Assembly: GCF_030758295.1 (NCBI RefSeq)
Contig: NZ_CP132335.1
Span: 2,580,412 to 2,644,411, forward strand
Reading direction: 5' to 3'
Source: Pararhizobium sp. IMCC21322
Lineage (GTDB): Bacteria; Pseudomonadota; Alphaproteobacteria; Rhizobiales; GCA-2746425
Length of the DNA stretch: 64,000 nucleotides
The notes beneath the pieces were generated by a model, which saw only the letters and a list, made by a program, of their open reading frames with translations, was not told the origin of the DNA and did not search any database. This document shows positions 1,894 to 63,501 of this stretch, one piece after another (position 1 is the first letter of the stretch; the number at the start of each line of letters is the position of its first letter). The translations under genes and the position numbers were made by a program.

Positions 1894-3255
1894 ATGAGGC
1901 TGTCAGCCAATAAGGTGAAAGCCCTGGCCGCTGCCGTTTATTTGCTGACCGCAAGCCTGGCAGTGGCAAATGACGGGTTTGAACGTCTCAGCGGCCATGG
2001 CGGCCCGGTTATGGGTGTTGCCGCAGCCAATGACACGAACGCAAAACTCAGCGCCAGTTTCGATTATTCGGTTGGGTACTGGACGGGTGGCAAACCGACA
2101 TGGCTGGAAGGCCACAAGGCTGCAGTTAACAGCGTTGCATTTCTGGGAAATGATCGTGCAGTGTCTGGTGGCGATGACTCTACGCTGATCCTTTGGGATT
2201 TGAGATCTGCAAAAATGCTGCAGCGGCTTGAAGGCCACACAGCAAAAATCATGTCCGTAACTGTGTCGGCAGACAGCACGCTTATTGCGTCCGCAAGCTG
2301 GGACAGCCGCATTGGCCTTTGGGATGCGGACACTGGCGCGTTGCGCGTATGGCTGACAGGCCACAAAAGCGGTGTGAATGATGTCGCGTTCAGCAAGGAC
2401 GGCACACTTTTGTATTCCGCTTCGATGGATGGGACCGTCAGAAGCTGGAATGTCGCAGATGGCAGTCCAGAACGGGTAGAGGTCAATCACGGCTTTGGCG
2501 TAAATCGGCTCGTGGTCAATGACCGCGAAGGCTGGCTGGCCTATGGAAGCCTGGATGGCGGTACAAGGGTCATCGACGTCGAAAATGGTAACGTGATTGC
2601 TGACGTGACACTTGAACGACGTCCTATCTTGGCGCTGGCTCTCAACTCTGACGCAAGTCGGCTCTCGGTTGGTGACGGTGATGGTTACATAATGGTCCTT
2701 GATACCAGGGACTGGTCCGTTGCCCGCGATTTTCGGGCGGCAAAATCAGGACCGGTCTGGGCTCTGGCTTATACAAATGATGGACGTCTCCTGTCCGGAG
2801 GGCTGGATGAAGCCGTTACGGTCTGGCCGGAAGAGGGGCGTGTCGCGGCGCAAGGCGCGGACCAGCAACCGTTCCATCGTCCGCCGAATGAAATGGAAAA
2901 CGGTGAGCGGCAATTCGTGCGCAAATGTTCCATTTGCCACAGCCTGGGTACAGATGTGAACAGGCAGGCAGGTCCGCCGCTTGGCGGTGTCTTCGGTCGC
3001 CTGGCTGGAACTGTGGAAGGATACAATTATTCCTCCGCGTTGACCGGCAATGATCTCGTCTGGAATGACGACACCATCAACGCGTTGTTTGATGTGGGAC
3101 CTGATGAGTTGACCCCCGGTTCAAAAATGCCGATGCAGAGAATTACCGATGCGCAGGACCGAATTGATCTGGTAGAGTATCTGAAAAGAGCAACCGATCC
3201 GGATGCGCCGGGCACCAATACAGACAGACAAAACGGTCAGGTCGAGGCTGAATAG
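1894..3255 (+). CDS. Exported WD40-repeat protein with C-terminal cytochrome c domain
   Basis: 453 residues. A signal peptide (1-25, ending AVA-N) is followed by about seven WD40 blades (about 30-315), with recurring GH...V...F and ILWDL/GLWDA/RSWNV motifs. After a short linker comes a class I cytochrome c domain: heme attachment motif CSICH (C345, C348, H349), the PPLGG turn, and a probable sixth ligand Met in SKMPM (about 412-414). It should therefore be a periplasmic monoheme cytochrome on a beta-propeller scaffold. Its start lies 2 bases after the formate dehydrogenase gamma gene, which suggests it takes electrons from that enzyme or docks it to a respiratory partner. That role is inference; the two-domain structure is read directly. 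Confidence 0.85.
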   Translation: MRLSANKVKALAAAVYLLTASLAVANDGFERLSGHGGPVMGVAAANDTNAKLSASFDYSVGYWTGGKPTWLEGHKAAVNSVAFLGNDRAVSGGDDSTLILWDLRSAKMLQRLEGHTAKIMSVTVSADSTLIASASWDSRIGLWDADTGALRVWLTGHKSGVNDVAFSKDGTLLYSASMDGTVRSWNVADGSPERVEVNHGFGVNRLVVNDREGWLAYGSLDGGTRVIDVENGNVIADVTLERRPILALALNSDASRLSVGDGDGYIMVLDTRDWSVARDFRAAKSGPVWALAYTNDGRLLSGGLDEAVTVWPEEGRVAAQGADQQPFHRPPNEMENGERQFVRKCSICHSLGTDVNRQAGPPLGGVFGRLAGTVEGYNYSSALTGNDLVWNDDTINALFDVGPDELTPGSKMPMQRITDAQDRIDLVEYLKRATDPDAPGTNTDRQNGQVEAE

Positions 3256-48803: not shown

Positions 48804-48834
48804 ATTTGACAAAAGTCACGTGCTGTTGTCAAAT
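48804..48834. promoter_or_regulatory. Operator-like inverted repeat upstream of the SorC-family gene
   Basis: atttgacaa (48804-48812) and ttgtcaaat (48826-48834) are perfect inverted arms 22 bases apart, two helical turns. TGACAAAAGTCA (48807-48818) overlaps the left arm, and its reverse complement appears upstream of mtnK and the ABC genes at 52290-52301. It may be the binding site of the SorC-family regulator. Confidence 0.6.
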
Positions 48835-48857: not shown

Positions 48858-49832
48858 ATGCCGATACAATCTTTGCGCCGCTCGGCAAGCCAGATTGGCG
48901 GGCATGATATCGTCATCGAAGCTGCTTGGTTGTACTATCAGGACGGACTGAACCAGAACGAAATCGCTGCACGGTTCAAGGTCTCAAGGGCGACCGTCGT
49001 GAATTATCTGCAAGAAGCCCGCGAACGCGGCTATGTGCAGATCACGCTTTCCCCGGAAGCATTCAAGGGCCATGAGGCCGCACTGCAATTACGCGAAAAA
49101 TACAGCCTTCGTGAAGCCTATGTCGTTCCGGACGGCAATGGAGAACAGCGCGTGACAGAAATTCGCGTGGCCCGTGGTGCTGCACAATGGCTGCCGCGCC
49201 TGGTTTCACCCGGTGACAGGCTTGGCGTTGCCTGGGGCAAAACCATCTACGATGTGGCAGAGTTCCTTGAGACAATTGCAGTGGATGATCTGACGGTTTT
49301 GCAACTGGTTGGTTCGATGGCGACACCTTACGGCTTTTCAGCAGATGTCTGTTCGTCTTATGTGGCGCGCAAATTCTCGGCACGATGCGTCAATCTGCAT
49401 GTGCCGGCCATGCTTTCAAGCCCGGAAGTTGCCAGAGCATTGCGTGCTGAAAATCTGATTGCCAGCCAGCTTGACGAGATAAGCCATTTTAACAAAACTC
49501 TTTTTGCAGTGGGCTCATGCACGCCGGACAGTCACGTGGTCTCATCGGGTGTCGCAACGATTGAAGAGTTGAACTGGTATATCGATCATGGTGCCGTTGG
49601 TGTGCTGTGCGGACGCTTCATCAATGAACAGGGCGATGGCATTGAAGGACCGCTGGACGAACGCATGATGGGCATTGCCCTTAATCGGATGCGTAATCCG
49701 GAGACAGGAATCCTGGTATCTGTCGGCAGTGACCGCGTGCCGGCCGCAATTGCAGCGTTGCGCGGCGGCTACGCCACCCACATTGTGACCAATCAATCCA
49801 GCGCCGAAGCAATTTTATCGTTAGGCGGCTGA
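48858..49832 (+). CDS. SorC/DeoR-type sugar-binding transcriptional regulator
   Basis: 324 residues. N-terminal HTH (about 18-62: [39 protein letters not shown]) and a C-terminal sugar-phosphate-binding domain ([48 protein letters not shown]). Such proteins sense phosphorylated sugars. It is convergent with mtnA, the two stops overlapping by 12 bases, and a MtnK or MtnA product is a plausible ligand. Confidence 0.88.
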
Positions 49833-50924
49833 TCGCCGTTCTGGAAACAACGCCAGCAGCCCTTCGGCACTGGCTTCGGCCACGCCGCGTTCGGTAATCA
49901 ACCCGGTCACCATTCGGGCAGGGGTTACATCAAATGCCGGATTGCCTCCGGGTGTCCCATCTGGCGAGATTTGAGCAAAACCGGTGCTGCCATCTTCAAG
50001 GCGGCCATAGATATGGGTTACTTCGCGCCCATCACGTTCTTCAATCGGAATTTCCTTGACGCCGTCATGCACGGTCCAATCAACCGTTGACGAGGGCAGA
50101 GCGACATAAAACGGAACGTTGTTGTCCGCCGCTGCAAGTGCTTTCAGATAGGTGCCGATTTTATTGCAGACATCGCCTTGCGCTGTCGTGCGGTCAGTTC
50201 CCACAATCACCATATCGACCTGGCCGTGTTGCATGAGATGACCACCGGCATTGTCTACAATCAGATGGTGTGGAATTGAATTGCCCACCATTTCCCATGC
50301 GGTCAATTGGGCACCCTGATTACGTGGACGCGTCTCATCAACCCAGACATGGATTGGAATGCCGGCCTCCATGGCGTGATACATGGGAGAGGTTGCTGTG
50401 CCCCAATCCACGGTTGCCAGCCAGCCTGCATTGCAATGGGTCAGTATGTTGACGGCTTCTCCAGGTTTCTTGGTTGTCGCAATTTTCTTTATGATTTCAA
50501 GTCCGTGGACGCCAATTAACCGATTTGTTTCCACATCATCATCGGCAATTTGTGCCGCTTTTGCTATCGCCGCCGCTTTGCGTTGATCTGCTGGCAAGGC
50601 GGTTAATGTGGCCCGCAATTCATCCAGCGCCCAGCGCAGATTAATGGCTGTCGGTCTGGTGGCATGAAGCACATCATAGGCTTCATTCAAGGCCTTATCG
50701 GATGGGTCCCGCGCCATTTGCAGCGCAACACCATAGGCAGCCGTCGCGCCGATGAGCGGCGCGCCTCGGACCCACATGTCACGAATGGCGGTTGCGAATT
50801 CGTCTAATGTCTCAAGTGTGACAACGCGAAATTCATGCGGCAACCAGCGCTGGTCAATGATGCGGATTTCACCTGTCGCAGTGTCCTGCCATATTGAGCG
50901 GTAATGGGTATCGCCAACTTTCAT
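49821..50924 (-). CDS. mtnA: S-methyl-5-thioribose-1-phosphate isomerase
   Basis: 367 residues, full length for MtnA. Conserved features: [21 protein letters not shown], the catalytic Cys in [16 protein letters not shown] and the catalytic Asp in [22 protein letters not shown]. It converts 5-methylthioribose 1-phosphate to 5-methylthioribulose 1-phosphate. Overlaps mtnK by 4 bases. It may also accept 5-deoxyribose 1-phosphate, as known for the family. Confidence 0.94.
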
Positions 50925-52189
50925 GATGTGCCGGTTCCTGTTTGTGATTGTCTTGCCATTGCAATGACCCGATCGATGCCATGCAGCCGTTTGCGGTTCA
51001 TGACCAACGCCTGACCGAATTTCAGAGATCGCGTTTCAAGCGGCGCGCGTATGTCTTCGTCTTCAATTGTTTCAAATTCAGCTATGTGAGCAAGGCCAAG
51101 TATGCGGCGGTGCATCTCAATGCCGGCAAATCCCAGAAGGTCTTCAAAAATCTCGCCCAGAAGCTGCTCAAGTGCCAATTCGCTGGCCATCAGGTGGCCC
51201 TGATCCTCGTACAAACTACGCGGATAAAGAATGCCGGTGCGTTCGGTACGCCACAGTTTTGAGAACTCATCACAAAACGCTGTCCACGTTTCGTCAATCG
51301 TCTCCAACACCCATTCCTGATAGGCGGCACAAGCAGTATCGTCGGCAATGTGAGCGCTTATTGCGTGATAGGCCATCAGATAATTGCCGATCAGCATGCC
51401 GATGTCGAAGCCCATTGGCCCGTAAAACGCAAATTCCGGATCAATGACCCGGGATTCATCATCTGTAACCATGATGGAGCCGGCATGCAGATCACCGTGG
51501 CACAGCGTCTCCGCCTTTGCCGAAAATGCGCGTTTCATGTGCTGAACTTCTACTTTCAGCATTTGGTCATTTCGCAATTCAGCCACGATGCCATCAAGCT
51601 GAGGCGTGGTGTAGCGGTTCATCTCGGCGTCGAAATAGGGATCGGTGAACACCAGATTTTCAGTGATGTCGCAGAGCTCTACATTGTCGCTGAACAAGGC
51701 CAGATCAGCTTTCTTCTTGGCGGTCTCCATAGACAGATCAGAGCCACGGAAAGCATTGCGGGCACAAAACCGCCCAATGGTTTCTCCAAGGCCTGCAACT
51801 TTTCGGCCAGCAATCATTTGCTGGCGCAATATGATGTGCGGCTGCAGACGCTCCATTATGATCAGTGCCTGGGTCTCGTCAAAATGCAGGATCTCCGGCA
51901 CGCTGCCAGGATCACGCTCCGCCTGACGGATCAGCGCATGATATTCGAAGTAAGCACGTTTGAGTGGAAGCGGCCAGGAATCGCCAACGAGGCGCACATA
52001 GGGCAGGGCCTGTTTCACAATGACGGAACCTGCAGTGCCTTCGACGATAAATACCAAATTCAGATTGCCATCGCCAACTTCGCGCACCTGCCAGTCGGTG
52101 CTGCTACCGCCGAGCGAATTTGTCATCGCATCCAGAGTGCCCAGACGGGCTGGAAGTGTTTCTGGCGTCAACGCCTTATAATCGCTCAA
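50921..52189 (-). CDS. mtnK: 5-methylthioribose kinase
   Basis: 422 residues from a TTG start at 52189, chosen because GGGGAGGA lies 6 bases upstream and the next residues ([12 protein letters not shown]) match the family start; upstream sequence is non-coding in character. Protein-kinase-like fold: [13 protein letters not shown] (nucleotide loop), [10 protein letters not shown] (Lys), [12 protein letters not shown] (catalytic Asp) and [17 protein letters not shown] (metal Asp). It phosphorylates methylthioribose at C1 using ATP. Coupled to mtnA; divergent from the ABC importer. Confidence 0.92.
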
Positions 52190-52274
52190 TTCGTCCTCCC
52201 CGAACAGAAAATATGGTCGACAACCAGCTACACGAGATGCGCAAGTGAGTACATGGTAGGTGGCGTAAAAAGCA

Positions 52275-52320
52275 TTTGTCAATACCTCTTGACTTTTGTC
52301 AGGTTGGCTGTTGAGGTATT
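52275..52320. promoter_or_regulatory. Shared control region of mtnKA and the ABC importer
   Basis: The 145-base gap holds tttgtca twice (52275-52281, 52295-52301), gtcaa/ttgac as inverted arms (52278-52282, 52289-52293) and aatacctc/gaggtatt (52281-52288, 52313-52320). TTGACT at 52289 also fits a -35 box. TGACTTTTGTCA here is the reverse complement of the motif upstream of the SorC-type gene. Confidence 0.5.
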
Positions 52321-52334
52321 TTAGGGAGGAACGA

Positions 52335-53855
52335 ATGACAGACTGTCTATGCCAGATTTCCGGTCTGCAAAAAGCATTTGGTGATAACCTTGTTTTGCGG
52401 GGGCTTAGCCTGGATTTGCCTGCGGGAAGCGTGACAGCTTTGATGGGGGCCAATGGTGCTGGCAAGTCGACACTGGTCAAAATCCTGTCCGGTGTACATG
52501 CAAGCGATGCAGGCAATGTGAGTCTTGCAGGTCAGAACTTTGTTCCGTCCAGCCCTTCAGATGCGATACGAAAAGGCGTTGTGACCGTCCATCAGGCCAT
52601 TAATGATGGTGTCATTCCGGATCTGGATGTCGCATCGAACCTCATGATTGACAGACTTGCGGAACCCAATTTCGGTTTTTTCCTGAAACGAAAACAGCTT
52701 TTCAAAGATGCGCAGGAAATAGCGGATCGCATGGGCATCGATGTTGATGTGCGTCAGCCTGTTGCGCAGTTGGGCGTGGCTGACAGACAGTTGATCGCCA
52801 TTGCACGCGCCATGTCACACCAGCCGTCACTTCTGATATTGGATGAGCCGACGTCCTCACTGTCCGCGGTTGAGGCAGAGCGTCTGTTTGAACTCATCGA
52901 AACCTTCAAAGAGCGGGGTGTTGCCGTTCTCTATATTTCGCACCGCATGTCGGACATAAGACGCATTGCAGATCGCATTGTCTCCATGCGTGATGGTGAA
53001 ATTTCTGGCCTCTTTGAAGATACACCACTGGACTATGAGGGCGCAGTCAACGCCATGCTTGGTCATCACATGACCGATGTGAATATTGAAATTCCGCCGC
53101 AAGGTGACGCCATTGCCGAATTGACGCAAATGCGGTTGAAGCCGGATAGCAAGCCGTTTGATCTGACACTGCATGACAATGAGATTGTTGCCATCACAGG
53201 TCTTTTGGGCAGCGGCAAAACTGATCTTGCGCAGGCGCTGTTTGGGCTCAGGGCACCCAGCTCCGGTTCCATAAAACTGGATGGCAGGGCCTACGCTCCC
53301 ACCAGCCCCGGAAATGCAATCGCGAGCGGCGTGTTCATGTCAACAAAAGACCGGGCGACAAATGCCGTCGTCGCCGACTTCAACATCACGCGAAACATTT
53401 CAGTTCCCTTTCTGCAGCAATTTTCCAGCTTTTCTTTCCTGTCGCGCAATGCGGAACGGGATACAGCGCGTGACATGATTGAAGCGCTCTCAATTGTCTG
53501 CCAGTCAGAAACGGACGGTATCAACACTCTGTCTGGTGGCAATCAGCAAAAGGTCATGTTGGCGCGCTGGCTCATCGATAAATGTCGCCTGCTATTGCTG
53601 GATGAACCGTTTCAGGGCGTCGACATCCGTTCCCGGCACGATATTGGCGAGAAGGTGCGGCAAACCGCAAAAGGGCGGGCGACACTTGTCTTTGTGTCCG
53701 AACTCGACGAAGCGCTGGAAATTGCTGACCGCATCATTGTCATGCATGAACACTCAATCATCGCCGAGTTTGTAAATCGTGATGTCGATCTCAATGAAAT
53801 ACTGACCGCTGTTACGGGAACAGCGCAAAAGCAGCCGGAGCATGAAGCAGCATGA
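52335..53855 (+). CDS. ABC sugar transporter ATP-binding protein, probable methylthioribose importer
   Basis: 506 residues from ATG 52335 with GGGAGGAACG upstream. Two ATPase halves: Walker A GANGAGKST (about 38-46), LLILDEPTSSLS; second half GLLGSGKTD, LSGGNQQKVMLARWL and LLLLDEPFQGVD. RbsA/MglA family. Divergent from mtnK across a shared promoter region, so methylthioribose or a related nucleoside-derived pentose is the likely cargo (inference). The second Walker A retains a Lys, unusual for this family. Confidence 0.87.
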   Translation: MTDCLCQISGLQKAFGDNLVLRGLSLDLPAGSVTALMGANGAGKSTLVKILSGVHASDAGNVSLAGQNFVPSSPSDAIRKGVVTVHQAINDGVIPDLDVASNLMIDRLAEPNFGFFLKRKQLFKDAQEIADRMGIDVDVRQPVAQLGVADRQLIAIARAMSHQPSLLILDEPTSSLSAVEAERLFELIETFKERGVAVLYISHRMSDIRRIADRIVSMRDGEISGLFEDTPLDYEGAVNAMLGHHMTDVNIEIPPQGDAIAELTQMRLKPDSKPFDLTLHDNEIVAITGLLGSGKTDLAQALFGLRAPSSGSIKLDGRAYAPTSPGNAIASGVFMSTKDRATNAVVADFNITRNISVPFLQQFSSFSFLSRNAERDTARDMIEALSIVCQSETDGINTLSGGNQQKVMLARWLIDKCRLLLLDEPFQGVDIRSRHDIGEKVRQTAKGRATLVFVSELDEALEIADRIIVMHEHSIIAEFVNRDVDLNEILTAVTGTAQKQPEHEAA

Positions 53856-54919
53856 GCACTGATGTGCAGGACAGCGGGATCACCGCTCAGCCAAAGGCAT
53901 CTGCCAAAAAAGGGCAATCGAGCGCGCTTGATCTGGCAATCCGGTATGGATTTCTGGCACTGCTGGTCGGGCTGGCCATATTCTTTTCCATTTTCGCCAG
54001 CGGGTTTGCCGGACCACGTTCAGCCGTGTTCATTTTCCAGTCCGTTGCCATGACCGGCATATTGGCGCTTGGAGTGACCTGCACTTTGGTTGTTGGCGGC
54101 TTTGATCTGTCCATCGGCTCGGTTGCAACATCTGCAATGATGCTGGCGGCCTATGTGATGGTGGTGCTGGAGCAACCCGCAGCCGTTGCGATTGTTGCAT
54201 GCCTTTTCTTGGGTGCCTTTATCGGGCTGGTGAACGGTATTCTGATTGTCCGGTTCAAAGTCCCGGATTTATTGGCAACTCTGGGTATGATGTTCCTGCT
54301 GGTAGGGCTGCAGCGCATTCCCACCGCCGGACGATCAATCTCAACCGGAATGGTTTTGCCGGATGGCGAGACAGCCAACGGCACATTCGATCCGCTGTTT
54401 CTTGCCATGGGCCGTCACCGCTTTGATTTCTTTCTTGAAAAACTGCTCCCGATCCCCGTGGTCTTCCTTATTGTCATTGCCATATTGATCTGGATTTTTC
54501 TGGAAACAACGCGGCACGGCCGCCTGATGTATGCCATCGGCTCTAATGAGCGCGCAGCCGCCCTGACGGGCACAAATGTCAAACGCTACAAGATCACTGC
54601 CTATATGATTTCCGGTGTGCTGGCCTCAATCGCTGGCATGTTGCTCGCGGCCCGCTTGGGGCGCGGTGATATCGCATCGGGCACCAATCTGCTGCTGGAT
54701 GCCGTTGCAGCATCCCTGATCGGTTTCGCAGTACTGGGGGCGGCGAAACCCAATGCCTTTGGCACCGCAATGGGCGCGCTGTTTGTCGGCATCCTTTTGC
54801 AGGGTCTGACCATGATGAACGCGCCTTACTACACGCAGGATTTCATCAAGGGTGCGGTTCTTGTCATCGCACTTGTATTCACTTTTTCATTATCGGCCCG
54901 CAAAGCGGCCGGTCATTGA
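53852..54919 (+). CDS. ABC sugar transporter permease
   Basis: 355 residues, about nine membrane helices, RbsC/BPD_transp_2 family with GGFDLSIGSVATSAMM and FALIGF-like SLIGFAVLGAAKPN near the end. Overlaps the ATPase gene by 4 bases. A short polar N-terminus (1-30) precedes the first helix. Confidence 0.87.
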   Translation: MSTDVQDSGITAQPKASAKKGQSSALDLAIRYGFLALLVGLAIFFSIFASGFAGPRSAVFIFQSVAMTGILALGVTCTLVVGGFDLSIGSVATSAMMLAAYVMVVLEQPAAVAIVACLFLGAFIGLVNGILIVRFKVPDLLATLGMMFLLVGLQRIPTAGRSISTGMVLPDGETANGTFDPLFLAMGRHRFDFFLEKLLPIPVVFLIVIAILIWIFLETTRHGRLMYAIGSNERAAALTGTNVKRYKITAYMISGVLASIAGMLLAARLGRGDIASGTNLLLDAVAASLIGFAVLGAAKPNAFGTAMGALFVGILLQGLTMMNAPYYTQDFIKGAVLVIALVFTFSLSARKAAGH

Positions 54920-54947
54920 CGACCAACTCAACAGGGAGAGAAACCAA

Positions 54948-55997
54948 ATGAAAATTCTAAGAAGATCTGTTTTAGGACTGTTTGCCAGCGTGGCCGTGGG
55001 GGCTGCAACAATTGGCACCGGATTTGCTCAATCCATGCCGGCACCACTGGATAATCCAGGTGATGTCAAAATTGCGCTGGTTCGTTATTTGTCTACGGGC
55101 GATTTCTTCCAGGCCTATTTGTCTGGCGTTGAAAAGCAGGCCGAGGCAATTGGTCTGGACCTGCGTATCTTTGACAGCCGTCAGGACGCTGCCTTGCAGG
55201 CCGATATGGTCGATCAGGCTATCGCGCTTGGTGTCGATGGCATCATCATCCAGCATGGCCTGACCGAATCCATGCAGGAAGCGGCGCAACGGGCCGTGGA
55301 TGCGGGCATCAAGGTTGTTGCCTTTGACGTGAATGTTGAAAATGACGCAATCCCGCAGATCGAACAGTCTGATTATCTCCTAGGCAAATTGGCTCTGGAG
55401 CAAGCGATCAAGGACAATGGCACTGAATGGAATGCAGGATACGTCTACGTTCCCGGCATTGCACCGCTCGACCGACGCCATGTTGCATGGGAAGAAGTCA
55501 AAGCAGCTAATCCGGGTATTGTTGAAAAAGCCCAGATGGGAACGCTCGACAACCCGATTGCCAACTCTAATGCAAATCAGGCGCGTTCTGTCCTGCAGGC
55601 GAACCAGGATATCACTGTGTTCTTTGCCCCTTACGATGAATTTGCCAAGGGCATAAAGATTGCGGTCGACGAAGCTGGCCTCACATCTGATGTCAGCATC
55701 TATTCCGCAGACGTATCAACGGCTGATATTTCCGCCATGCGGGAGCCAGACAGTGCCTGGAAGGCAACAGTTGCCACAAACCCGGCAGTGGTTGGTGAAG
55801 TGTCCGTGCGTGCGCTTGCAATCATGCTGACCGGCGAAAATCCCGGCGCGCAGGTTATTGTGCCACCAACTTTGATCACTCAGGCATTCCTGAATGAAAA
55901 CGACATTAAGAACATGGAAGATCTGTCGGCCAATATGCCACAATTCGCACATGCTGATGTTGCGATGACCGAGTGGATGCCTCTGCCAGGCCGCTAA
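54948..55997 (+). CDS. ABC sugar transporter substrate-binding protein
   Basis: 349 residues from ATG 54948 with GGGAGAGAAA upstream. Signal peptide 1-27 (GFAQ-SM). Type-I binding fold: VALVRYLSTGDFFQAYLSGV-like N-terminus, IALGVDGIIIQHGLTESM, KVVAFDVNVEND, FFAPYDEFAKG. Distinct from the RbsB-type protein at 21392. Ends the importer operon, followed by a terminator. Confidence 0.87.
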   Translation: MKILRRSVLGLFASVAVGAATIGTGFAQSMPAPLDNPGDVKIALVRYLSTGDFFQAYLSGVEKQAEAIGLDLRIFDSRQDAALQADMVDQAIALGVDGIIIQHGLTESMQEAAQRAVDAGIKVVAFDVNVENDAIPQIEQSDYLLGKLALEQAIKDNGTEWNAGYVYVPGIAPLDRRHVAWEEVKAANPGIVEKAQMGTLDNPIANSNANQARSVLQANQDITVFFAPYDEFAKGIKIAVDEAGLTSDVSIYSADVSTADISAMREPDSAWKATVATNPAVVGEVSVRALAIMLTGENPGAQVIVPPTLITQAFLNENDIKNMEDLSANMPQFAHADVAMTEWMPLPGR

Positions 55998-56015
55998 GAT
56001 ACCTGCACTCATACG

Positions 56016-56047
56016 AAAGCCGCCTGTTCATGACAGGCGGCTTTTTT
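56016..56047 (+). terminator. Rho-independent terminator of the methylthioribose-type ABC operon
   Basis: aaagccgcctg and caggcggcttt pair as an 11-bp stem with a TTCATGA loop, ending in a run of T residues (56041-56047). Starts 19 bases after the binding-protein stop. Confidence 0.9.
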
Positions 56048-56143
56048 TGTGGGAATAGAATGTAAAAAACTTCGGTGCTTTAAATTGGCTCACTTCGCCG
56101 AAATCGAACCGCTTCTGTCCATCTTCGACGAACCATGGGGACT

Positions 56144-56241
56144 CGGAATAAATCCGAGTACGACGGCAGCGGTGGTATGAGATGTGAGCGTTTAATAAGC
56201 CTCGCTGACACGCTCCTATCGTCATCCTCGGATTTATTCCG
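56144..56241. repeat. REP-like inverted repeat
   Basis: cggaataaatccgag (56144-56158) and ctcggatttattccg (56227-56241) are perfect 15-bp inverted arms about 80 bases apart, each itself near-palindromic. The flanking CTCATC/GTCATCCTCGG wording resembles the extragenic palindromes scattered through alphaproteobacterial genomes. It fills the gap between the convergent ABC and RuBisCO-like operons. No gene seen here. Confidence 0.6.
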
Positions 56242-56335
56242 TGAATCCAGGCAACAGTCCCGCAAGCTCTATGGCCAAACCAAACGCCGCCGAATTCAAA
56301 ACTCAGAACACTCTTGTGCACGACTGTGACCGGCT

Positions 56336-57460
56336 CTAAAAGCTGTCGATAGCGTCCCGCATGGCTTTGACCGTATCTCCGATCTTGTCGCGCTGACGCA
56401 GAAGACTGCCGCCAAGCAGAAAGACGACATCTTCTCCATACATGGAAACCATATCCTGAGCGCGATCCACACTCATCCCGCCGCCGGGGGATGGCATCAT
56501 GGGCGCACCGATCCCGTTAGGCTGACGGCAGGCATCGGCAATTGACAGGCACTCTTCGCGCGTAAAGCCAAATCGTCCGCCGACATTCGGGAAAACCGAA
56601 ATGTCTGATCCGGCCAGTCTCTGAATTGTGCCATACATAATGGCATGGTCGATGCCTGTTGTCGGCGTCAGCACAAACGGACCGGTAAATGCGGGATGCG
56701 TCATGACAGGAAGTCCGAACTCCGCATTGGCTGCCAGGTGCTGCGCGGTGCCAAACCCTATGAGACCGGGCATGATAAGCACGCCGCCCGCACCAGCTTC
56801 TTTTGCCCGAAATGCCTCTTCGACAACATTGCCGGTATGGCCGGTAATGTTGACGAAATAGAGCGCTTTAGTGCCGTGTTTGGCATTGGCTTCAGCGACT
56901 GCATCGCTTACCGCTTTCAACCTGTCTTCAAAGGGGGCCATTGTCTGATTGGCCAGCCCATGGTCATCTTTGATGATGTCAGCCCCGCCGGCAACGCAAC
57001 GAGACGCAATCAGCGCCAATTGGGCCGGGGAGGAGCCTTGCGGCTTGATAACAGGAGAAATCAATCCACCGCTTTTTCTGCCCGTGAGGGCGCGCAGGCC
57101 CTCAATGCCAAATCGCGCACCGGTAAATCGGCGCTCAATTTCCGGACCTGCATCAAAGCCCACAACACGCACATTTTGCTGAATTGACGTATTGCCGAAG
57201 ATGACATTGATCAATTGCACCACTTCATGCCCGGCGCTGTCCGGTGCGTAGGAAATGATGGCTTCATACGCGCCGCCATTCTGCGCCTCAACAGCTTCAA
57301 CATGCCCGACGATTTCATCGCGTATGAAGCCATCCGGAACCACATCGTCCGGAATTTCAACAGTTTGTTCCAGCGCTATGTCTTTGGCACGCGTATTTGC
57401 TTCGCTCTCGTCTCCGGCAAAAATGCGGTAGGTGACGCGAAAACGATTATCATCAGCCAT
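56336..57460 (-). CDS. RuBisCO-like protein (form IV)
   Basis: 374 residues, shorter than RuBisCO (about 470). The N-terminal alpha/beta domain (1-125) precedes a TIM barrel. K139 (SPVIKP) corresponds to catalytic Lys175 and K164 (DIIKDDH) to the carbamylated Lys201; D166 matches Asp203, but the next metal ligand Glu204 is His167. It therefore cannot be a normal carboxylase. Form IV proteins act as enolases or isomerases, for example on methylthioribulose 1-phosphate. It follows the two transketolase genes with 3-base spacing, and mtnK/mtnA lie 4 kb away. Apiose- or isoapionate-type pathways also use such proteins, so the substrate is not settled. Confidence 0.85.
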   Translation of the reverse strand: MADDNRFRVTYRIFAGDESEANTRAKDIALEQTVEIPDDVVPDGFIRDEIVGHVEAVEAQNGGAYEAIISYAPDSAGHEVVQLINVIFGNTSIQQNVRVVGFDAGPEIERRFTGARFGIEGLRALTGRKSGGLISPVIKPQGSSPAQLALIASRCVAGGADIIKDDHGLANQTMAPFEDRLKAVSDAVAEANAKHGTKALYFVNITGHTGNVVEEAFRAKEAGAGGVLIMPGLIGFGTAQHLAANAEFGLPVMTHPAFTGPFVLTPTTGIDHAIMYGTIQRLAGSDISVFPNVGGRFGFTREECLSIADACRQPNGIGAPMMPSPGGGMSVDRAQDMVSMYGEDVVFLLGGSLLRQRDKIGDTVKAMRDAIDSF

Positions 57461-57463
57461 CTG

Positions 57464-58468
57464 TCAAAGCGCCTCTGCTTTCACGGCAGAATGGACGGCA
57501 TCAATACGTGTGCTGGTGAGCTGTTCTTCGGTAATTCCCGTTTTGCTGCCGAGCAGTTTTTCAATGCCGGCAACAAGGGCCGCAGCATCAAGTCCGTAAT
57601 GGCTCATCAGATAGGCGCGCGATCCACCGTGAGCAAACGTATCTCGCAGGCCCAGACGGACAAGCTTTTTACCGACACCATGATCCGCCATGATTTCCGC
57701 AACCAGCGATCCGACACCGCCCTCTGTCAGATGGTTTTCAAGAACGACAACGCCTTTGCTGACAGACCCGATGTGATCCAGCAGCGCTTCTTCACCAAAT
57801 GGCTTGATCGTATTGATATGCAGATGGCGAATTGAAACACCGGATTGTTCCAGCGCACCACGTGCCCGCAAGGCTTCTTCGGTCGCTATGCCTGAGGTGA
57901 TGACGAGAATGTCTTCCCCCAGCGCCAATTCACGCATTTGTCCGACCTTGATTGGCGTGTCGAAAAGACGGGGTATGGAACCACGCAAGACGCGGCAATA
58001 GACCGGCCCGTCAATGGAGTCGGCAGCTTCACAGATGCTTTCCACCTCTGTCGCATCGCCCGTTTCCAAAATTGTCATGTTGGGGATCGACCGCATCACG
58101 GCGACATCCTCAATGGATTGGTGGGTCATGCCGCCGGGCGTTGTAATGCCGGGCAAAAAGCCCATCAATCGTACTTTGCGCCGTGGATATGCCACAGAAG
58201 CTATGAGCTGATCATAGGGGCGACGATACAGAAAAACGCCAAAGGAATGCAGGAAGGGTCGATACCCGGCCAGGCCAAGCCCGCCAGCAAAACTCATCAT
58301 GTTTTGCTCAGCCATTCCCAGAGATATGAACTGGTCTGGATGCCTGTCACGAAACCCGTCAATTTCACAGGAGGATGTCAGATCCGCTGACAGACACAGC
58401 ACGTCAGGATTTGCCGTTGCATAGGTTTCAAATGCGCTTGCATAGGGTCGACTGACCATCTCCACCAT
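57464..58468 (-). CDS. Transketolase C-terminal subunit (pyrimidine-binding half)
   Basis: 334 residues from ATG 58468, which has GGAGGG at good spacing; an ATG at 58483 overlapping the previous gene is the alternative. Pyr domain with the catalytic Glu in ISLGMAEQNMMSFAGGLG, and a C-terminal transketolase domain (ILVITSGIATEEALRARGAL, VVVLENHLTEGGVGSLVAEI). Together with the next gene it makes a two-subunit ThDP enzyme that cleaves ketose phosphates between C2 and C3. Split transketolases are known for apulose 4-phosphate and others. Confidence 0.88.
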   Translation of the reverse strand: MVEMVSRPYASAFETYATANPDVLCLSADLTSSCEIDGFRDRHPDQFISLGMAEQNMMSFAGGLGLAGYRPFLHSFGVFLYRRPYDQLIASVAYPRRKVRLMGFLPGITTPGGMTHQSIEDVAVMRSIPNMTILETGDATEVESICEAADSIDGPVYCRVLRGSIPRLFDTPIKVGQMRELALGEDILVITSGIATEEALRARGALEQSGVSIRHLHINTIKPFGEEALLDHIGSVSKGVVVLENHLTEGGVGSLVAEIMADHGVGKKLVRLGLRDTFAHGGSRAYLMSHYGLDAAALVAGIEKLLGSKTGITEEQLTSTRIDAVHSAVKAEAL

Positions 58469-58469
58469 A

Positions 58470-59405
58470 TCAATGCCCTCCATCGGTCAAATCGACCGGA
58501 TCAATGCCTAGTTCAGCTGCGATAGAAATATTCATTTCTGCGCGCTCCTCCTGAGATTTAAAACGCACATAATGAAGACGCGGGAAGCGCCGCCGCAAAA
58601 ATTCCATCCCTTGTGTGGGCGAAGATCGCGCAAGAATGATAAGCGGTTTGCCTTCATGCGGCGTTTTTCTGGCTTCTCGCAATGCGTTGAGGTCGTGCGC
58701 ATCCACTTCAACGCAGACTGCGCCGAAATTGCGAAATTTGGCGGCGATATCACCGACTTCCATGACACTGTCCATCGCGCCGTCACATTGTTGGTCATTG
58801 ACGTCCATCAAGGCCCAAAGATTGTCTATCCGATGGTGTGCCGCCGCTTGTACCGCCTCCCAGGTTTGACCTTCCTGCACTTCGCCATCCGACATGAAGA
58901 CGCAGACATCACCTGTTTCGCCACGGCGTTTGCGACCAAATGCCAGACCGGCTCCCGTTGAAAATCCAATGCCCAATGTACCGTTGTGAACTTCCATCCC
59001 GGGGGAATGCTCTGCGCCAATCATTTCGACGGAGGAACCATCCTGGTTGAACATTTCAAGGCCCTTGGGGTCCATGCGGCCAACCTCGATCAACGTTGCA
59101 TATGCAACCAGCGCATAATGCGCAGGCGCTATGAACAGGCGGTCATATTGGGGCTCAAACGGCCCATTATAACCAGCGCCGGAGTGATATTCGGGGTTGT
59201 TTGCTGACGGCACACCACCAAACGGCTTGGGGATTGCGGGCAGGGTGGGGTCCCCAAGGGTCAGGGCTTCATTATAGAGAAAAGCCAATTGCTCGGCAGC
59301 CGAACAGGCCTGACTGAGATAGCCGCCATTGTTGCGCATGGCATGCTCAAATACACGTTTCCGTATGCCTGCTGCAACGGCATCTGTTGTCTTGCTATTC
59401 TGCAC
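58470..59405 (-). CDS. Transketolase N-terminal subunit (ThDP pyrophosphate-binding half)
   Basis: 311 residues from a GTG start at 59405 with GAGGAG 7 bases upstream. ThDP/Mg motif SDGEVQEGQTWEA ending in DVNDQQCDG, and EHSPGMEVHNGTLGIGFSTG which frames the cofactor channel. An insert near 50-75 (PAIPKPFGGVPSANNPEYHS) differs from housekeeping transketolase and may shape the substrate pocket. First gene of the transketolase-RuBisCO-like operon. Its promoter region carries the GTCAA/TTGAC half-sites also found at mtnK and the SorC-type gene. Confidence 0.87.
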   Translation of the reverse strand: MQNSKTTDAVAAGIRKRVFEHAMRNNGGYLSQACSAAEQLAFLYNEALTLGDPTLPAIPKPFGGVPSANNPEYHSGAGYNGPFEPQYDRLFIAPAHYALVAYATLIEVGRMDPKGLEMFNQDGSSVEMIGAEHSPGMEVHNGTLGIGFSTGAGLAFGRKRRGETGDVCVFMSDGEVQEGQTWEAVQAAAHHRIDNLWALMDVNDQQCDGAMDSVMEVGDIAAKFRNFGAVCVEVDAHDLNALREARKTPHEGKPLIILARSSPTQGMEFLRRRFPRLHYVRFKSQEERAEMNISIAAELGIDPVDLTDGGH

Positions 59406-59449: not shown

Positions 59450-59473
59450 TGTCAAGAACTGTTGTCTTTTGAC
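59450..59473. promoter_or_regulatory. GTCAA/TTGAC half-sites upstream of the transketolase operon
   Basis: gtcaa (59451-59455) and ttgac (59469-59473) are inverted arms; TTGTC lies at 59462-59466. TGTCTTTTGAC here resembles TGACTTTTGTCA at 52290. The rest of the 308-base gap (59406-59713) contains no gene. Confidence 0.45.
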
Positions 59474-59713: not shown

Positions 59714-60724
59714 ATGTCAAAGTTAAAAATGATTGGTCTGCTCGGTGCAGCGGCAATGATGGCGCTGAGTGCGCCGGCAAACGCTGAATGGAAACCGGAC
59801 AAGCCGATCAACATTATTGTGCCATGGTCAGCCGGTGGATCGACCGATCAGGTCACACGGGTCGTGGCACCAATTCTTGCAGAAGCACTGGGCACGCCCG
59901 TAGTTGTCGTGAACCAGCCGGGCGCATCAGGGTCTATTGGAACCAAGGCGGCTCTCGATGCGCCGCGTGATGGTTACACATGGACCGCAAACGCAATTGC
60001 AAACAACGCCACATATTCAGTGACAGGCCTTGTCGAGAACACCTCGATCAATGATTATCGTGTTTATCTGCATGTTGCGAATGTACCGGTTGTCTCGGTG
60101 AATGCGAATTCTCCTTACCAGAATTTTGGTGAGCTGCTTGAAGCGATGAGAGAAGCAGAGACCGTTAAAGTTGGCACTGCCGGTGTTAATTCATCCGGTG
60201 GAATGGCTCTTGCAGCCATTGGTGAAGCTGCCGGCGGTGAGTTTGGTGCCCGTATGGTCACATATGATGGCGGCAATCCCGCTGTTCTTGCTGCTGCATC
60301 CGGTGAAGTCACTGCAACCACGCAGTTGGCTGTTGAACAGACTGAAATGATCAAAGCTGGCAAATTGCGCGCACTGGCCGTCTTGTCAGACAAGCCATTG
60401 ATTGTTGAGGGAATTGATCCGGTTCCACCAATTACTGATTTCCTTCCGAACATGCATGTTGCGCCCGATTACTTCGGCGTGTTCATCCCTGTTGGAGCTC
60501 CTCAGGAAGTCTATGACACTGTGGACAAAATCTGGCAGGAAAAGGTCATGAATTCTGAAGCGTTGAGCAGCTATGCGACGGAACGCGGTGCGGTTTTCGA
60601 TCCAAGCTATGGTGACGCAGCCATGGAGCGGGCGATGCCTGTTGTTATTGCGGAAGCATGTGCCCGTGTAACGCGCGGTGAAGCAATTGTTGACCCGTCT
60701 GAAATCGGAATTGATTGCCCATAA
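59714..60724 (+). CDS. Tripartite tricarboxylate transporter substrate-binding protein
   Basis: 336 residues with GGAGGAG before ATG 59714. Signal peptide 1-24 (ANA-EW). TctC/Bug family marks: KPINIIVPWSAGGSTDQVTR, VVVNQPGASGSIG and GTAGVNSSGGMALAAIG. It captures a carboxylate for TctAB. First gene of a TTT operon that includes its TetR regulator. A Cys pair near the C-terminus (CARV, IDCP) may form a disulfide. The ligand is unknown. Confidence 0.9.
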   Translation: MSKLKMIGLLGAAAMMALSAPANAEWKPDKPINIIVPWSAGGSTDQVTRVVAPILAEALGTPVVVVNQPGASGSIGTKAALDAPRDGYTWTANAIANNATYSVTGLVENTSINDYRVYLHVANVPVVSVNANSPYQNFGELLEAMREAETVKVGTAGVNSSGGMALAAIGEAAGGEFGARMVTYDGGNPAVLAAASGEVTATTQLAVEQTEMIKAGKLRALAVLSDKPLIVEGIDPVPPITDFLPNMHVAPDYFGVFIPVGAPQEVYDTVDKIWQEKVMNSEALSSYATERGAVFDPSYGDAAMERAMPVVIAEACARVTRGEAIVDPSEIGIDCP

Positions 60725-60809
60725 GGGCATCCAACCGTTTGGCGCGCAGTGTCATACACTGCGCGCCAAATTGGGACACCGTTCCTGCGAATTCTAAACA
60801 GGTACACTC

Positions 60810-61304
60810 ATGAATTCTGAATCTCCCATGGCTGACCGGATAACTGCCGCCGTCCTGCTGCTGCTTGGTGGTGCGATGTTCTGGGGCGGTTTCGTAATGG
60901 ACCGGCTTGAAATCCGTCAAATCCATCCCGCCAGCATACCGGGCCTGCTACCAATTTTTCTCGGCATTATCCTGATGATCTGCGCGGTCTTTCTGGGCCT
61001 CAGCACACGCGGTAAAGCAAGCCCTACAGTTTCAGAAACGCCGAAGGATTCTGAAAACTGGAGCGACTTTGGTTTCGCGGCTGTCTGGAGCTGCCTGTTC
61101 GCAATCGTCATGGTCAACCGAATTCCCTTCGTTGTCGCATCTGCGATCTACATTGCAGTCTTTACCGGCTGGTATTTGTGGCGGCCGTCGGGAGAGGGCG
61201 GAAATCGATTTAAAATGATGCTGCTCGTTGTTCTTTACGCCGTTCTGGTTGCGGTCGGTATATCAGCCTTGTTCCGCTACGGCTTTCTCGTGAGGCTCCC
61301 CTGA
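60810..61304 (+). CDS. TTT transporter small membrane subunit
   Basis: 164 residues with four membrane helices, TctB family (RIHPASIPGLLPIFLGIILMI near the start). Helper for the large permease. The stop overlaps the next start by one base. Confidence 0.85.
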   Translation: MNSESPMADRITAAVLLLLGGAMFWGGFVMDRLEIRQIHPASIPGLLPIFLGIILMICAVFLGLSTRGKASPTVSETPKDSENWSDFGFAAVWSCLFAIVMVNRIPFVVASAIYIAVFTGWYLWRPSGEGGNRFKMMLLVVLYAVLVAVGISALFRYGFLVRLP

Positions 61305-62842
61305 TGGAAGCGCTCACCCAATTTTTCGCGGCGATTGCCCATTTCACAACACCGCTGTTTCTGTTCCACATTGCGTGGGCCACTTTGCTTGGAATTCTGG
61401 TCGGAAGTCTACCCGGATTGACGGCCACAATGGGCGTCGCCCTGTTGACCACGCTCACTTACACTTTGGACAAAGATGCAGCCATCCTGGTGTTGATCTG
61501 CATGTATGTCGGCGCAATTTATGGCGGTTCCAGATCGGCAATTCTTCTGAATATTCCTGGCACGCCAGCGTCTGCTGCGACTTCGCTGGATGGGTTTCCG
61601 TTAGCGCAAAGAGGGCAGGCGGGCTACGCCATGGCACTTGCGACTGCCGGGTCCGCCATGGGCACCATTGTTGGCATCGCGTTGCTGGTTTTGCTGGCAC
61701 CGGCTTTGGCTGCCATCGCACTTGATTTCGGATCGTTTGAGTTCTTCTGGCTGGCAGTCTTCGGGATTGTCATTTCAGGCCAGCTCACTGGCGGTGTCAG
61801 CCCGTTAAAAGGATACATCGCGGGCATCCTCGGCCTGATGGTCGCAATGATCGGCAGCGAAGGCATACATGCCCATATTCGTTTCAATCTCGGCTTTTCG
61901 GAATTGAATGGTGGCATTGCGCTTATCCCCGCCATGGTCGGAGCATTTGGTTTTGCCGAAGTGCTGACCGTGATGTTGCGTAAAAAGCCGGTTATGAGCG
62001 CAAAGGAGCTGAAGGAAGACCGCATCCTTCCCAGGCTGGCAGATCTTTGGAAATACAAACGAACAATCGGGCGGTCGGGAATTATCGGAACTCTGGTCGG
62101 CATTATACCCGGCGTTGGCGAAGATATTGGTGCCTGGGCGTCTTACGCTGCCTCAAAACGAAGCAGCAAAGAGCGCAAAGAATACGGCAATGGCTCCAAG
62201 GAAGGTCTGATCGCTGCTGAAACGGGCAACAGTGCGGTGGTTCCCGGCGCACTCATTCCTGCCCTGACCCTTGCTGTTCCAGGCTCTGCGCCTGCGGCCG
62301 TTCTTATCGCGGCCCTGTTCATTCATGGTGTTCGGCCAGGTCCAATGATCATGATCGAGCAGCCTGACTTCATCTATTCTGTCGCTGCCATGCTGTTCTT
62401 CGCGACCCTTGCGATTACGATCTATGGTTTGTCATTGACGCGGCTGTTCATACTGGTCTTGCGCATTCCAAGAGAGTATCTCATGCCGGTTGTCTTCACG
62501 CTGTGCGTGATCGGGCCCTTTGCGTTGACGCAGCGCATATTCGACATTTGGGTCATGGTCGGGTTTGGCCTGGTTGGGTTTGTTTTGCGAAAAATGAACT
62601 ATCCGATGGCACCACTCGTTCTTGGAATTATTCTGGGAAGTCTGCTCGACAAATCGCTGCGGCGGGGCCTGACGCTGTCCAATGGATCGCTGGAACCGTT
62701 TTTCCTGCGCCCGATTTCGGCAATGTTTGTAGCTGTAATTGTTCTGAGTATTATCCTGAGCCTCCCAGCCGTGCAAAAGGCTATGTCACGTTGGATTGAC
62801 CGTCTGATGCCTTCTGGCAAGCGTGCGGAGGAAGATCAGTGA
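61304..62842 (+). CDS. TTT transporter large permease
   Basis: 512 residues, about eleven membrane helices, TctA family. Landmarks: LVGSLPGLTATMGVALL, YGGSRSAILLNIPGTPAS, GIIPGVGEDIGAWASY and GNSAVVPGALIPALTLAVPG. The GxxPG repeats form the transport core. Overlaps the TetR gene by 4 bases. Confidence 0.92.
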   Translation: MEALTQFFAAIAHFTTPLFLFHIAWATLLGILVGSLPGLTATMGVALLTTLTYTLDKDAAILVLICMYVGAIYGGSRSAILLNIPGTPASAATSLDGFPLAQRGQAGYAMALATAGSAMGTIVGIALLVLLAPALAAIALDFGSFEFFWLAVFGIVISGQLTGGVSPLKGYIAGILGLMVAMIGSEGIHAHIRFNLGFSELNGGIALIPAMVGAFGFAEVLTVMLRKKPVMSAKELKEDRILPRLADLWKYKRTIGRSGIIGTLVGIIPGVGEDIGAWASYAASKRSSKERKEYGNGSKEGLIAAETGNSAVVPGALIPALTLAVPGSAPAAVLIAALFIHGVRPGPMIMIEQPDFIYSVAAMLFFATLAITIYGLSLTRLFILVLRIPREYLMPVVFTLCVIGPFALTQRIFDIWVMVGFGLVGFVLRKMNYPMAPLVLGIILGSLLDKSLRRGLTLSNGSLEPFFLRPISAMFVAVIVLSIILSLPAVQKAMSRWIDRLMPSGKRAEEDQ

Positions 62843-63501
62843 GCTCCAATCTGAAAGTCGTCAGGAAAGGCCCGAAGAGAGATGCCGCCGCTTCCAAGCG
62901 CCGCATTCTTGAGGCCGCGCTTCATGAATTTTCTCGGTATGGGCACGCAGGTGCACGTATGGATTCAATCGCGGAAGCTGCTGATGTATCCAAGCCGATG
63001 ATCTACACCTATTACGGCGACAAGGAAGAGCTTTACAAGGCAGCCCTGCGAGAGAGCTACGTGCAAATCCGGCGAGGTGAATTGAACCTTCAACTGGGCG
63101 ATCTTGATCCTGAAGCAGGTATACGCGAGCTGGTAAGCTTCACGATGAACCACTTCGTGTCAAAGCCATGGTTCATATCCATGTTAAACACAGAGAACCT
63201 TCTGGGCGGCGATGCTATCCGCCAGATTGGCGACGCCGATGCAATTCAATCTCCCCTGATCGATGGGATCGGCAAACTGCTTCAAAGAGGCGCAAGCACC
63301 GGGCTGTTTCGCGATGATATCGACCCGGTGGAACTTTACATCACAATCGCCTCGCTTTGCTATTTTCCAGTTTCGAACCAGCACACTCTGCGCTCGGTTT
63401 TTAAAGTCCCCATTGATGCTCCGTGGTTGGCGCAAAGGTCCGAAATGATCTCAGACATGGTTGTGCAATACCTCAGATCCGAGAAAGCGACCGAGCAATG
63501 A
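62839..63501 (+). CDS. TetR-family regulator of the TTT operon
   Basis: 220 residues from a GTG start with GGAGGAAGA upstream. N-terminal HTH (about 18-64: ILEAALHEFSRYGHAGARMD, ADVSKPMIYTYYGDKEELY). C-terminal domain of the TetR_C type. Translationally coupled to tctA and likely represses the operon through the ttactagttggtaa site at 59680. Confidence 0.87.
   Translation: MSSNLKVVRKGPKRDAAASKRRILEAALHEFSRYGHAGARMDSIAEAADVSKPMIYTYYGDKEELYKAALRESYVQIRRGELNLQLGDLDPEAGIRELVSFTMNHFVSKPWFISMLNTENLLGGDAIRQIGDADAIQSPLIDGIGKLLQRGASTGLFRDDIDPVELYITIASLCYFPVSNQHTLRSVFKVPIDAPWLAQRSEMISDMVVQYLRSEKATEQ

Follow-up and report, generated by a model that had tools for sequence, protein, structure and literature searches.

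Comparative sequence evidence linking a RuBisCO-like protein and a split transketolase with MtnK and MtnA in a predicted regulon for 5-substituted 5-deoxyribose in Pararhizobium sp. IMCC21322

The stretch of DNA analyzed here (64,000 nucleotides, referred to as the window) lies at positions 2,580,412 to 2,644,411 of contig NZ_CP132335.1 of Pararhizobium sp. IMCC21322. Near its right end it carries a cluster in which genes for 5-methylthioribose kinase (mtnK) and 5-methylthioribose-1-phosphate isomerase (mtnA) stand with a sugar importer, a RuBisCO-like protein (RLP) and a transketolase split into two genes, and which we read as a probable regulon for the degradation of 5-substituted 5-deoxyribose. 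Such sulfur- or deoxy-sugars are remnants of S-adenosylmethionine. Features are given in window coordinates.

48808..48831, plus strand: operator copy 1, upstream of the SorC-type regulator gene, exact GWCAAAAGWCAN7TTGWCA
48858..49832, plus strand: SorC-type (sugar-binding) transcriptional regulator, proposed regulator of the cluster (PF04198, 185.8 bits)
49821..50924, minus strand: mtnA, 5-methylthioribose-1-phosphate isomerase (PRK05720, 483.8 bits, cut-off 271; TIGR00512, 426.5 bits, cut-off 279)
50921..52189, minus strand: mtnK, 5-methylthioribose kinase (TIGR01767, 499.4 bits, cut-off 275), predicted start
52277..52300, minus strand: operator copy 2, between the divergent mtnK and rbsA-type genes, exact
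52335..53855, plus strand: RbsA/AraG-type sugar importer ATPase, predicted start ATG 52335
53852..54919, plus strand: RbsC-type importer permease
54948..55997, plus strand: RbsB-type substrate-binding protein, predicted start ATG 54948
56336..57460, minus strand: RLP of the transketolase-linked group, proposed 5-substituted ribulose-1-phosphate 1,3-isomerase
57464..58483, minus strand: TKC, C-terminal half of the split transketolase (PF02779, Transket_pyr; PF02780, Transketolase_C)
58470..59405, minus strand: TKN, N-terminal half of the split transketolase, binding thiamine diphosphate (ThDP) (PF00456, Transketolase_N)
59450..59473, minus strand: operator copy 3, upstream of TKN, exact

The gene set, order and strands were as described in the initial annotation of this DNA. 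MtnA and MtnK scored above curated NCBIfam cut-offs, and Pfam supported the RLP, TKN, TKC and the regulator. The mtnK open reading frame, extending to 52516, was overlong, and its start is probably a TTG near 52189, judging from the codons and the length of relatives. The regulator was assigned from PF04198 (putative sugar-binding domain), which we take to be the mark of the SorC type; its match to the DeoR-like model NF053881 reached 205 bits, below the cut-off of 420. The importer ATPase, permease and binding protein gave ribose/arabinose-type family matches, below cut-offs among the matches listed. The transketolase halves are adjacent, one holding the ThDP half and the other the pyrimidine-binding and C-terminal half, with the catalytic Glu and the ThDP motif kept. 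Their best PDB matches were 6yaj for TKC (C-terminal chain of a split transketolase, 187.8 bits) and 6yak for TKN (115.2 bits); against the NCBIfam transketolase equivalogs TKC scored at best 183/488 bits and TKN 122.3/488, these being whole-protein models whose cut-offs the halves cannot reach. The RLP matched Pfam RuBisCO_large at 72 bits (cut-off 30.1) and was the only such match in the whole genome (5.25 Mb, one contig). Its identification as MtnW (2,3-diketo-5-methylthiopentyl-1-phosphate enolase) was rejected, both scores lying below cut-offs (188.7/409 and 145.2/513.6 bits), as was OiaX (3-oxo-isoapionate-4-phosphate decarboxylase; 83.1 bits, cut-off 700).

Related loci were collected from plasmids and genomes. 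By tblastn the RLP matched 316 plasmid records, the best 21 of which (43.8–53.1% identity) were all from alphaproteobacteria, and a search of genome contigs for related loci returned one near-identical locus only. TKC was found at E ≤ 1e-90 in 26/295 genomes of family f25 and in 30/247 of family f175, both samples being even or nearly so; 55 stretches were newly taken from these genomes, G714 and G662 were already in the set, and one genome gave two stretches. The table held 75 clusters, with the plasmid records and L002 included and the window left out, and TKC matched at 60% or more in 68; the clusters are partly non-independent, because one plasmid occurs twice, as L011 and L171, and L002 nearly duplicates the window.

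The annotated records of Mariluticola, Shinella, Pararhizobium, R. rosettiformans, Agrobacterium MA01, NT-25 and Ensifer PDNC004 showed mtnK-mtnA-TKN-TKC-RLP as a single run with an importer of the same kind divergent from it, and the same run was recognized by blastp in two unannotated records (L011 and L013). At the Ponticoccus locus, parts of a nucleoside importer, PNP, a deaminase-type amidohydrolase, mtnA, a BisC-type reductase, TKN, TKC and RLP occur together, the amidohydrolase and the reductase both scoring below family cut-offs. Two genomes of one genus carry MtnA and TKN as one uninterrupted frame of 656 codons (G202) or 648 codons (G744); in the G202 fusion, residues 2–341 align with MtnA (43%) and residues 362–643 with TKN (52%). 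An RLP stood beside TKC in 56 of the 68 closer clusters and was missing from 12. Within the stretches of the 56, mtnA was present in 52, mtnK in 49 and rbsB in 49 (RbsB homologues occurred in 49/68 clusters, with 75–84% identity to RbsB of L008), and neither mtnA nor mtnK lay within the stretch in any of the 12 RLP-free clusters. Where RLP and transketolase had no mtnA in the stretch (G714, G686, G896, G1134 and G344), mtnA was found elsewhere in the genome or just outside the stretch. Same-strand direct adjacency was counted in 75 clusters with the window replacing L002, and was seen for TKC-RLP in 60, mtnA-TKN in 27 and rbsB-TKN (gap < 600) in 15. An accidental neighborhood was rejected, given mtnA directly before TKN in 27/75 clusters and the MtnA-TKN fusion.

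Genomes holding the operon that usually lacked mtnK/mtnA had been named in the initial annotation as evidence that would speak against its proposal; mtnA was present in 44/44 genomes of the f25 and f175 samples with transketolase and RLP (41 within the stretch, 3 by genome search), as a raw count. Among genomes with a close transketolase and no RLP it was found in 5/10, and among those with a distant transketolase (G758, G1201) in 1/2. Gene context thus strongly supports placing the RLP and the split transketolase with MtnK-MtnA.

The opposite arrangement, an operon serving an apiose- or isoapionate-type sugar with mtnK-mtnA as neighbors by accident, had been offered in the initial annotation as its alternative. 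Split transketolases do also occur in apiose catabolism. RLPs occur there too, according to the accessible part of one source (PMC6302742). The OiaX score noted above, the contiguity with mtnA, the fusion and the shared operator described below all oppose it, and the annotated stretches around related operons showed no gene labelled as apiose- or apionate-related; we therefore consider it very improbable.

The genome (5.25 Mb) contains the pattern GWCAAAAGWCAN7TTGWCA in exact form at three places only: before the regulator, mtnK/rbsA and TKN. Because the pattern was derived from those copies, their match to it carries no independent weight; the independent part of the evidence is the absence of other exact genome copies and the recurrence in the same places in near relatives. 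From base composition, 0.0035 exact matches per genome were expected, and none arose in 6 simulated genomes. With one mismatch or fewer allowed, 18 sites were found in 9 of 11 other chosen genomes, 16 inside cluster stretches and 2 within 1.7 kb of stretch ends. With two or fewer, 35 sites were found in 19 of 77 stretches (both-strand overlaps counted twice), 32 of them near the start of sorC, mtnK/rbsA, TKN, the aldolase/short-chain dehydrogenase (SDR) gene considered below or PNP/mtnA. Separate regulation of the operons, which would also have spoken against the original proposal, is thus not what the sites suggest: an operator common to the regulator, mtnK/rbsA and TKN argues for one regulon, with the SorC-type protein as its proposed regulator.

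A fourth site in the same genome, with one mismatch, lies before an importer operon ending in a nucleoside hydrolase gene (PF01156, 66.8 bits). This ABC sugar importer-nucleoside hydrolase operon (L192 6580-11882, from C1:524579 onward) could supply 5-substituted ribose from a nucleoside, and is a lead only, as the quality of the site is within chance: one-mismatch sites are expected at 0.16 per genome from base composition, or up to 0.5, and arose in 3/6 simulated genomes. The near relative G1260 showed no such site.

The partner of the RLP was compared across genomes. Among 385 sampled alphaproteobacterial genomes, 17 including this one held such an RLP at E ≤ 1e-40; in the other 16 a cupin stood beside it in 13 (RLP 35–39% identical) and a transketolase pair in 2 (40–41%), and L038 stopped at a contig end. 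Six of 398 genomes of the phylum held such an RLP, L061 coming from one of them. Identity alone is not decisive for the partner, since L061, from another class, has a cupin at 42–43% and L015 has a transketolase pair at 32%. Of 76 placed loci, 61 had the RLP beside a transketolase, 15 beside a cupin methylsulfurylase (cupins of this kind were recognized by blastp in other loci) and 0 beside both. In a tree of 77 RLPs, a single branch with support 100/96 split the 61 transketolase-linked rows from the 15 cupin-linked rows and L038, with 1 label change vs 14.8 in shuffles; the tree was midpoint-rooted only, with no outgroup, and L015, L061 and L014 form long branches. Residues K139, K164, D166, R296, F297, P325, G327 and G328 were invariant in both groups, and the best solved relative of the RLP is PDB 3qfw, which is 61% identical to a cupin-linked RLP.

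No cupin methylsulfurylase stood beside the transketolase in any of 75 clusters, and none of its relatives was found in this genome at E ≤ 0.01 (a one-genome search with no positive control alongside). The earlier statement that no cupin or aldolase is present holds locally; genome-wide, four Aldolase_II proteins are encoded, none in the cluster and none at an operator site. The accessible text of PMC5893883 gives such RLPs a single role, in the isoprenoid shunt, and there RLP1 of R. palustris performs a 1,3-isomerization, its gene number adjoining that of the cupin. The comparison supports a transketolase in the place that the cupin occupies in that shunt.

The following pathway is proposed. 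The RbsABC-type importer would take up a 5-substituted 5-deoxyribose (5-methylthioribose, perhaps 5-deoxyribose), MtnK would phosphorylate it at C1, and MtnA would convert the product into a 5-substituted ribulose 1-phosphate, both reactions being family knowledge. The RLP would shift the carbonyl from C2 to C4, giving on reversed numbering a 1-substituted xylulose 5-phosphate such as 1-methylthioxylulose 5-phosphate; this 1,3-isomerase step is known for the neighboring group and is extended here by analogy. Replacing the cupin methylsulfurylase, the split transketolase would cut C2-C3 to give glyceraldehyde 3-phosphate and a ThDP-bound C2 unit bearing the substituent. Loss of methanethiol from this adduct might leave an acetyl group; the candidate fates of the C2 unit are acetyl plus methanethiol, or an aldehyde. 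The analogy is with two ThDP enzymes, sulfoacetaldehyde acetyltransferase (Xsc) and phosphoketolase, which form acetyl-ThDP by expelling a beta leaving group, the chemistry proposed here for methanethiol loss; neither family was among the family-profile matches of TKN or TKC.

We assign a probability of about 0.68 to the reading of the cluster as one regulon degrading 5-substituted 5-deoxyribose via MtnK, MtnA, the RLP and the split transketolase. Its comparative basis is linkage, gene fusion, the shared operator, the lack of overlap with cupins, and the kept and lost active-site residues. A transketolase step after MtnA and the RLP is likely on this basis; we infer every reaction from the RLP onward, as well as which substrate is used and what becomes of the C2 unit. 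Of the methylthioribose route put forward in the initial annotation, the tie of RLP and transketolase to MtnK-MtnA and the position of the transketolase in place of the cupin were supported, and the choice of a methylthio over a 5-deoxy substituent and the formation of acetyl are conjectural.

For the active site, 20 linked transketolases were aligned with E. coli TktA (whose numbering is used), together with four other split transketolases. H66, D155, N185, H261, R358, E411, H473 and R520 were kept in 20/20 and S385 in 19/20 (Asn in the Vibrio transketolase). H26 was replaced by Tyr, H100 by Ile, H461 by Phe and D469 by Gly in 20/20. Three of the four other split transketolases carried Tyr at both H26 and S385, Ser at H100 and Ala at R358, and the fourth keeps His 26 and 100; the change at H26 is accordingly uninformative. 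In TktA, H100 presumably contacts the donor C1 hydroxyl; the phosphate would be contacted by R358, S385, H461 and R520, and the acceptor alpha-hydroxyl by D469. Phosphate-site residues kept with H100 lost would fit a phosphorylated donor without a C1 hydroxyl.

The 12 RLP-free TKCs formed one group with 7 TKCs accompanied by an RLP (support 100/97), which points to repeated exchange of partners by the enzyme. Beside the RLP-free transketolases of Paracoccus and Marinovum lie genes for a xylulokinase-like kinase, an AraD-like epimerase, a zinc dehydrogenase, a BisC-type reductase and a sulfonate-type importer; all of these but the zinc dehydrogenase were scored on Paracoccus and fell below family cut-offs. 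Within the stretch, the kinase was present in 6 of the 12 RLP-free clusters and the BisC-type reductase in 8, and neither was in L136, L137, L155 or L156. These four, together with L139, an RLP cluster adjoining a kinase of the xylulokinase-like family at 42%, show that the RLP and kinase entries are imperfectly separated. A kinase placing phosphate on C5 would make the RLP needless and would tie both kinds of cluster to one donor; with a 1-substituted ketose 5-phosphate as the donor, a kinase beside half of the RLP-free transketolases is what one would expect. In L053 (5380-13944), L054 (5411-13944), L133, L141, L163 and L164, genes for a SorC regulator, the epimerase, the zinc dehydrogenase, the kinase and the reductase are divergent from TKN-TKC, with an SsuABC-type importer or a sulfatase near in some. 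We would guess that the substrate of the RLP-free clusters is a methylsulfinyl pentose or pentitol, or a sugar derived from an arsenosugar.

Sulfur at C5 is hinted at by the BisC-type S/N-oxide reductase, present in 3/56 RLP clusters as well as in the 8/12 RLP-free ones. A full route can be drawn in which a 5'-methylthio- (or methylsulfinyl-) nucleoside or sugar enters via MtnK or a phosphorylase and passes through MtnA and the RLP, the transketolase acting like a phosphoketolase to give glyceraldehyde 3-phosphate, methanethiol and acetate or acetyl phosphate, with an RLP-free kinase entry to the same transketolase. This is put forward tentatively, and the odds are against its being right as a whole.

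A sulfur-free pathway for 5-deoxyribose (from 5'-deoxyadenosine) is a rival reading. There the RLP would yield 1-deoxyxylulose 5-phosphate (DXP), and the transketolase would run the reverse half reaction of DXP synthase to glyceraldehyde 3-phosphate and acetaldehyde (or a transferred unit). TKC scored 160 bits against DXP synthase (TIGR00204), nearly equal to its 183 for transketolase, both below cut-off, and the amidohydrolase of L007 matched 5'-deoxyadenosine deaminase (301/522 bits) above the deaminase of methylthioadenosine (MTA) and S-adenosylhomocysteine (220/779), again both below cut-off. In the accessible part of PMC12632272, the names given to MtnK and MtnA of the E. coli dihydroxyacetone phosphate (DHAP) shunt cover methylthioribose as well as 5-deoxyribose. 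The reductase, although below its family cut-off, hints at sulfur, and the nearest characterized kin of the RLP uses methylthioribulose 1-phosphate, as far as the available text of PMC5893883 goes. We regard a purely 5-deoxyribose pathway as unlikely, with a real chance of being right.

Several observations weigh against a regulon for 5-substituted 5-deoxyribose that runs through the RLP and transketolase. D469 and H461 are lost in all 20 linked transketolases, and because glyceraldehyde 3-phosphate has an alpha-hydroxyl and a phosphate, these losses mildly oppose its plain release. No recurrent neighbor gene stood out as an enzyme for the C2 unit among the tabulated clusters. The operator was not found at two mismatches or fewer in 58/77 stretches, including 26 of the 27 in which mtnA immediately precedes TKN; another operator may serve there, or one operon may need only one promoter. 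The Vibrio nigripulchritudo plasmid L015 has TKN-TKC-RLP without mtn genes nearby (only the plasmid was covered). At 5979-11614 of L015, a divergent RLP (32–33%) accompanies TKN-TKC, along with a sugar importer and a xylulokinase-like kinase; the module may be the same one, serving a different sugar.

Finally, a bifunctional class II aldolase/SDR gene lies beside at least 30/75 clusters and has the operator in L144, L148, L154 and L159, so aldol cleavage may compete. Were such cleavage, as in the DHAP shunt, the main fate of the ketose 1-phosphate, the RLP and transketolase would drain a side product. The gene was not seen in the other 45/75 stretches, the window included (an upper bound, as some stretches end short of its usual place). 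Its nearest homologue in this genome (50%) belongs to another sugar cluster (L186), which also encodes a kinase, a dehydrogenase and an importer and where no operator was found at one mismatch or fewer. Aldol cleavage as the main fate is improbable on these grounds. The aldolase/SDR gene, e.g. L055 1672-3726, often adjoins a SorC regulator.

The cluster was also compared with known systems. The MTA-isoprenoid shunt of Rhodospirillum rubrum and Rhodopseudomonas palustris consists of MtnP, MtnA, a DeepYkr RLP and the cupin methylsulfurylase. The cluster shares with it MtnA, an RLP of a neighboring group with the same catalytic motifs and, as proposed here, 1-methylthioxylulose 5-phosphate as an intermediate; it differs in having a split transketolase and no cupin beside it in the 75 clusters, and in an entry mostly by MtnK and an importer rather than a phosphorylase. 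With the DHAP shunt (MtnK, MtnA, Ald2) it has in common MtnK, MtnA, the use of exogenous 5-deoxypentoses and a dedicated repressor, the shunt's MtnR being likened to DeoR-family repressors in the accessible part of PMC12632272; RLP and transketolase replace the aldolase, and the predicted triose is glyceraldehyde 3-phosphate, not DHAP. Transketolase steps on 5-deoxypentoses are known from a source available in part (PMC8102628): in Synechococcus a promiscuous transketolase uses 5-deoxyribose as acceptor to give 7-deoxysedoheptulose, and in Methanocaldococcus jannaschii a suggested step converts 5-deoxyribulose 1-phosphate into lactaldehyde and methylglyoxal. The likeness lies in a transketolase acting on a 5-deoxypentose; neither involves an RLP or a dedicated gene pair, as far as that text goes. 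The sulfo-transketolase pathway (SqwGH, 6-deoxy-6-sulfofructose transketolase) likewise dedicates a transketolase to a sulfur-substituted sugar, unlike the cluster a sulfonate hexose, and was likened by description, not sequence, from the accessible part of PMC11659671.

No description of a route with a transketolase after MtnA and an RLP was found in the open-licence PubMed Central literature (mostly titles and abstract openings). If correct, the route would be a second fate for the RLP product and add a branch to methionine salvage; soil and marine alphaproteobacteria could use methylthio- or deoxy-sugars as carbon, with methanethiol possibly released, and the transketolase would be one that accepts a donor with no C1 hydroxyl. 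Direct tests can start from the operator, the fusion and the two entry modules.

Elsewhere in the window, a TctCBA tripartite tricarboxylate transporter and a TetR regulator (59714-63501) are divergent from TKN. TctCBA was rejected as a conserved part of the cluster, high identity (88–98%) being seen only in L002; the homologues in L007 and L130 are distant (34–35%). At 1894-3255 a gene for a WD40-repeat protein adjoins one for a cytochrome b561-type protein (584-1891).

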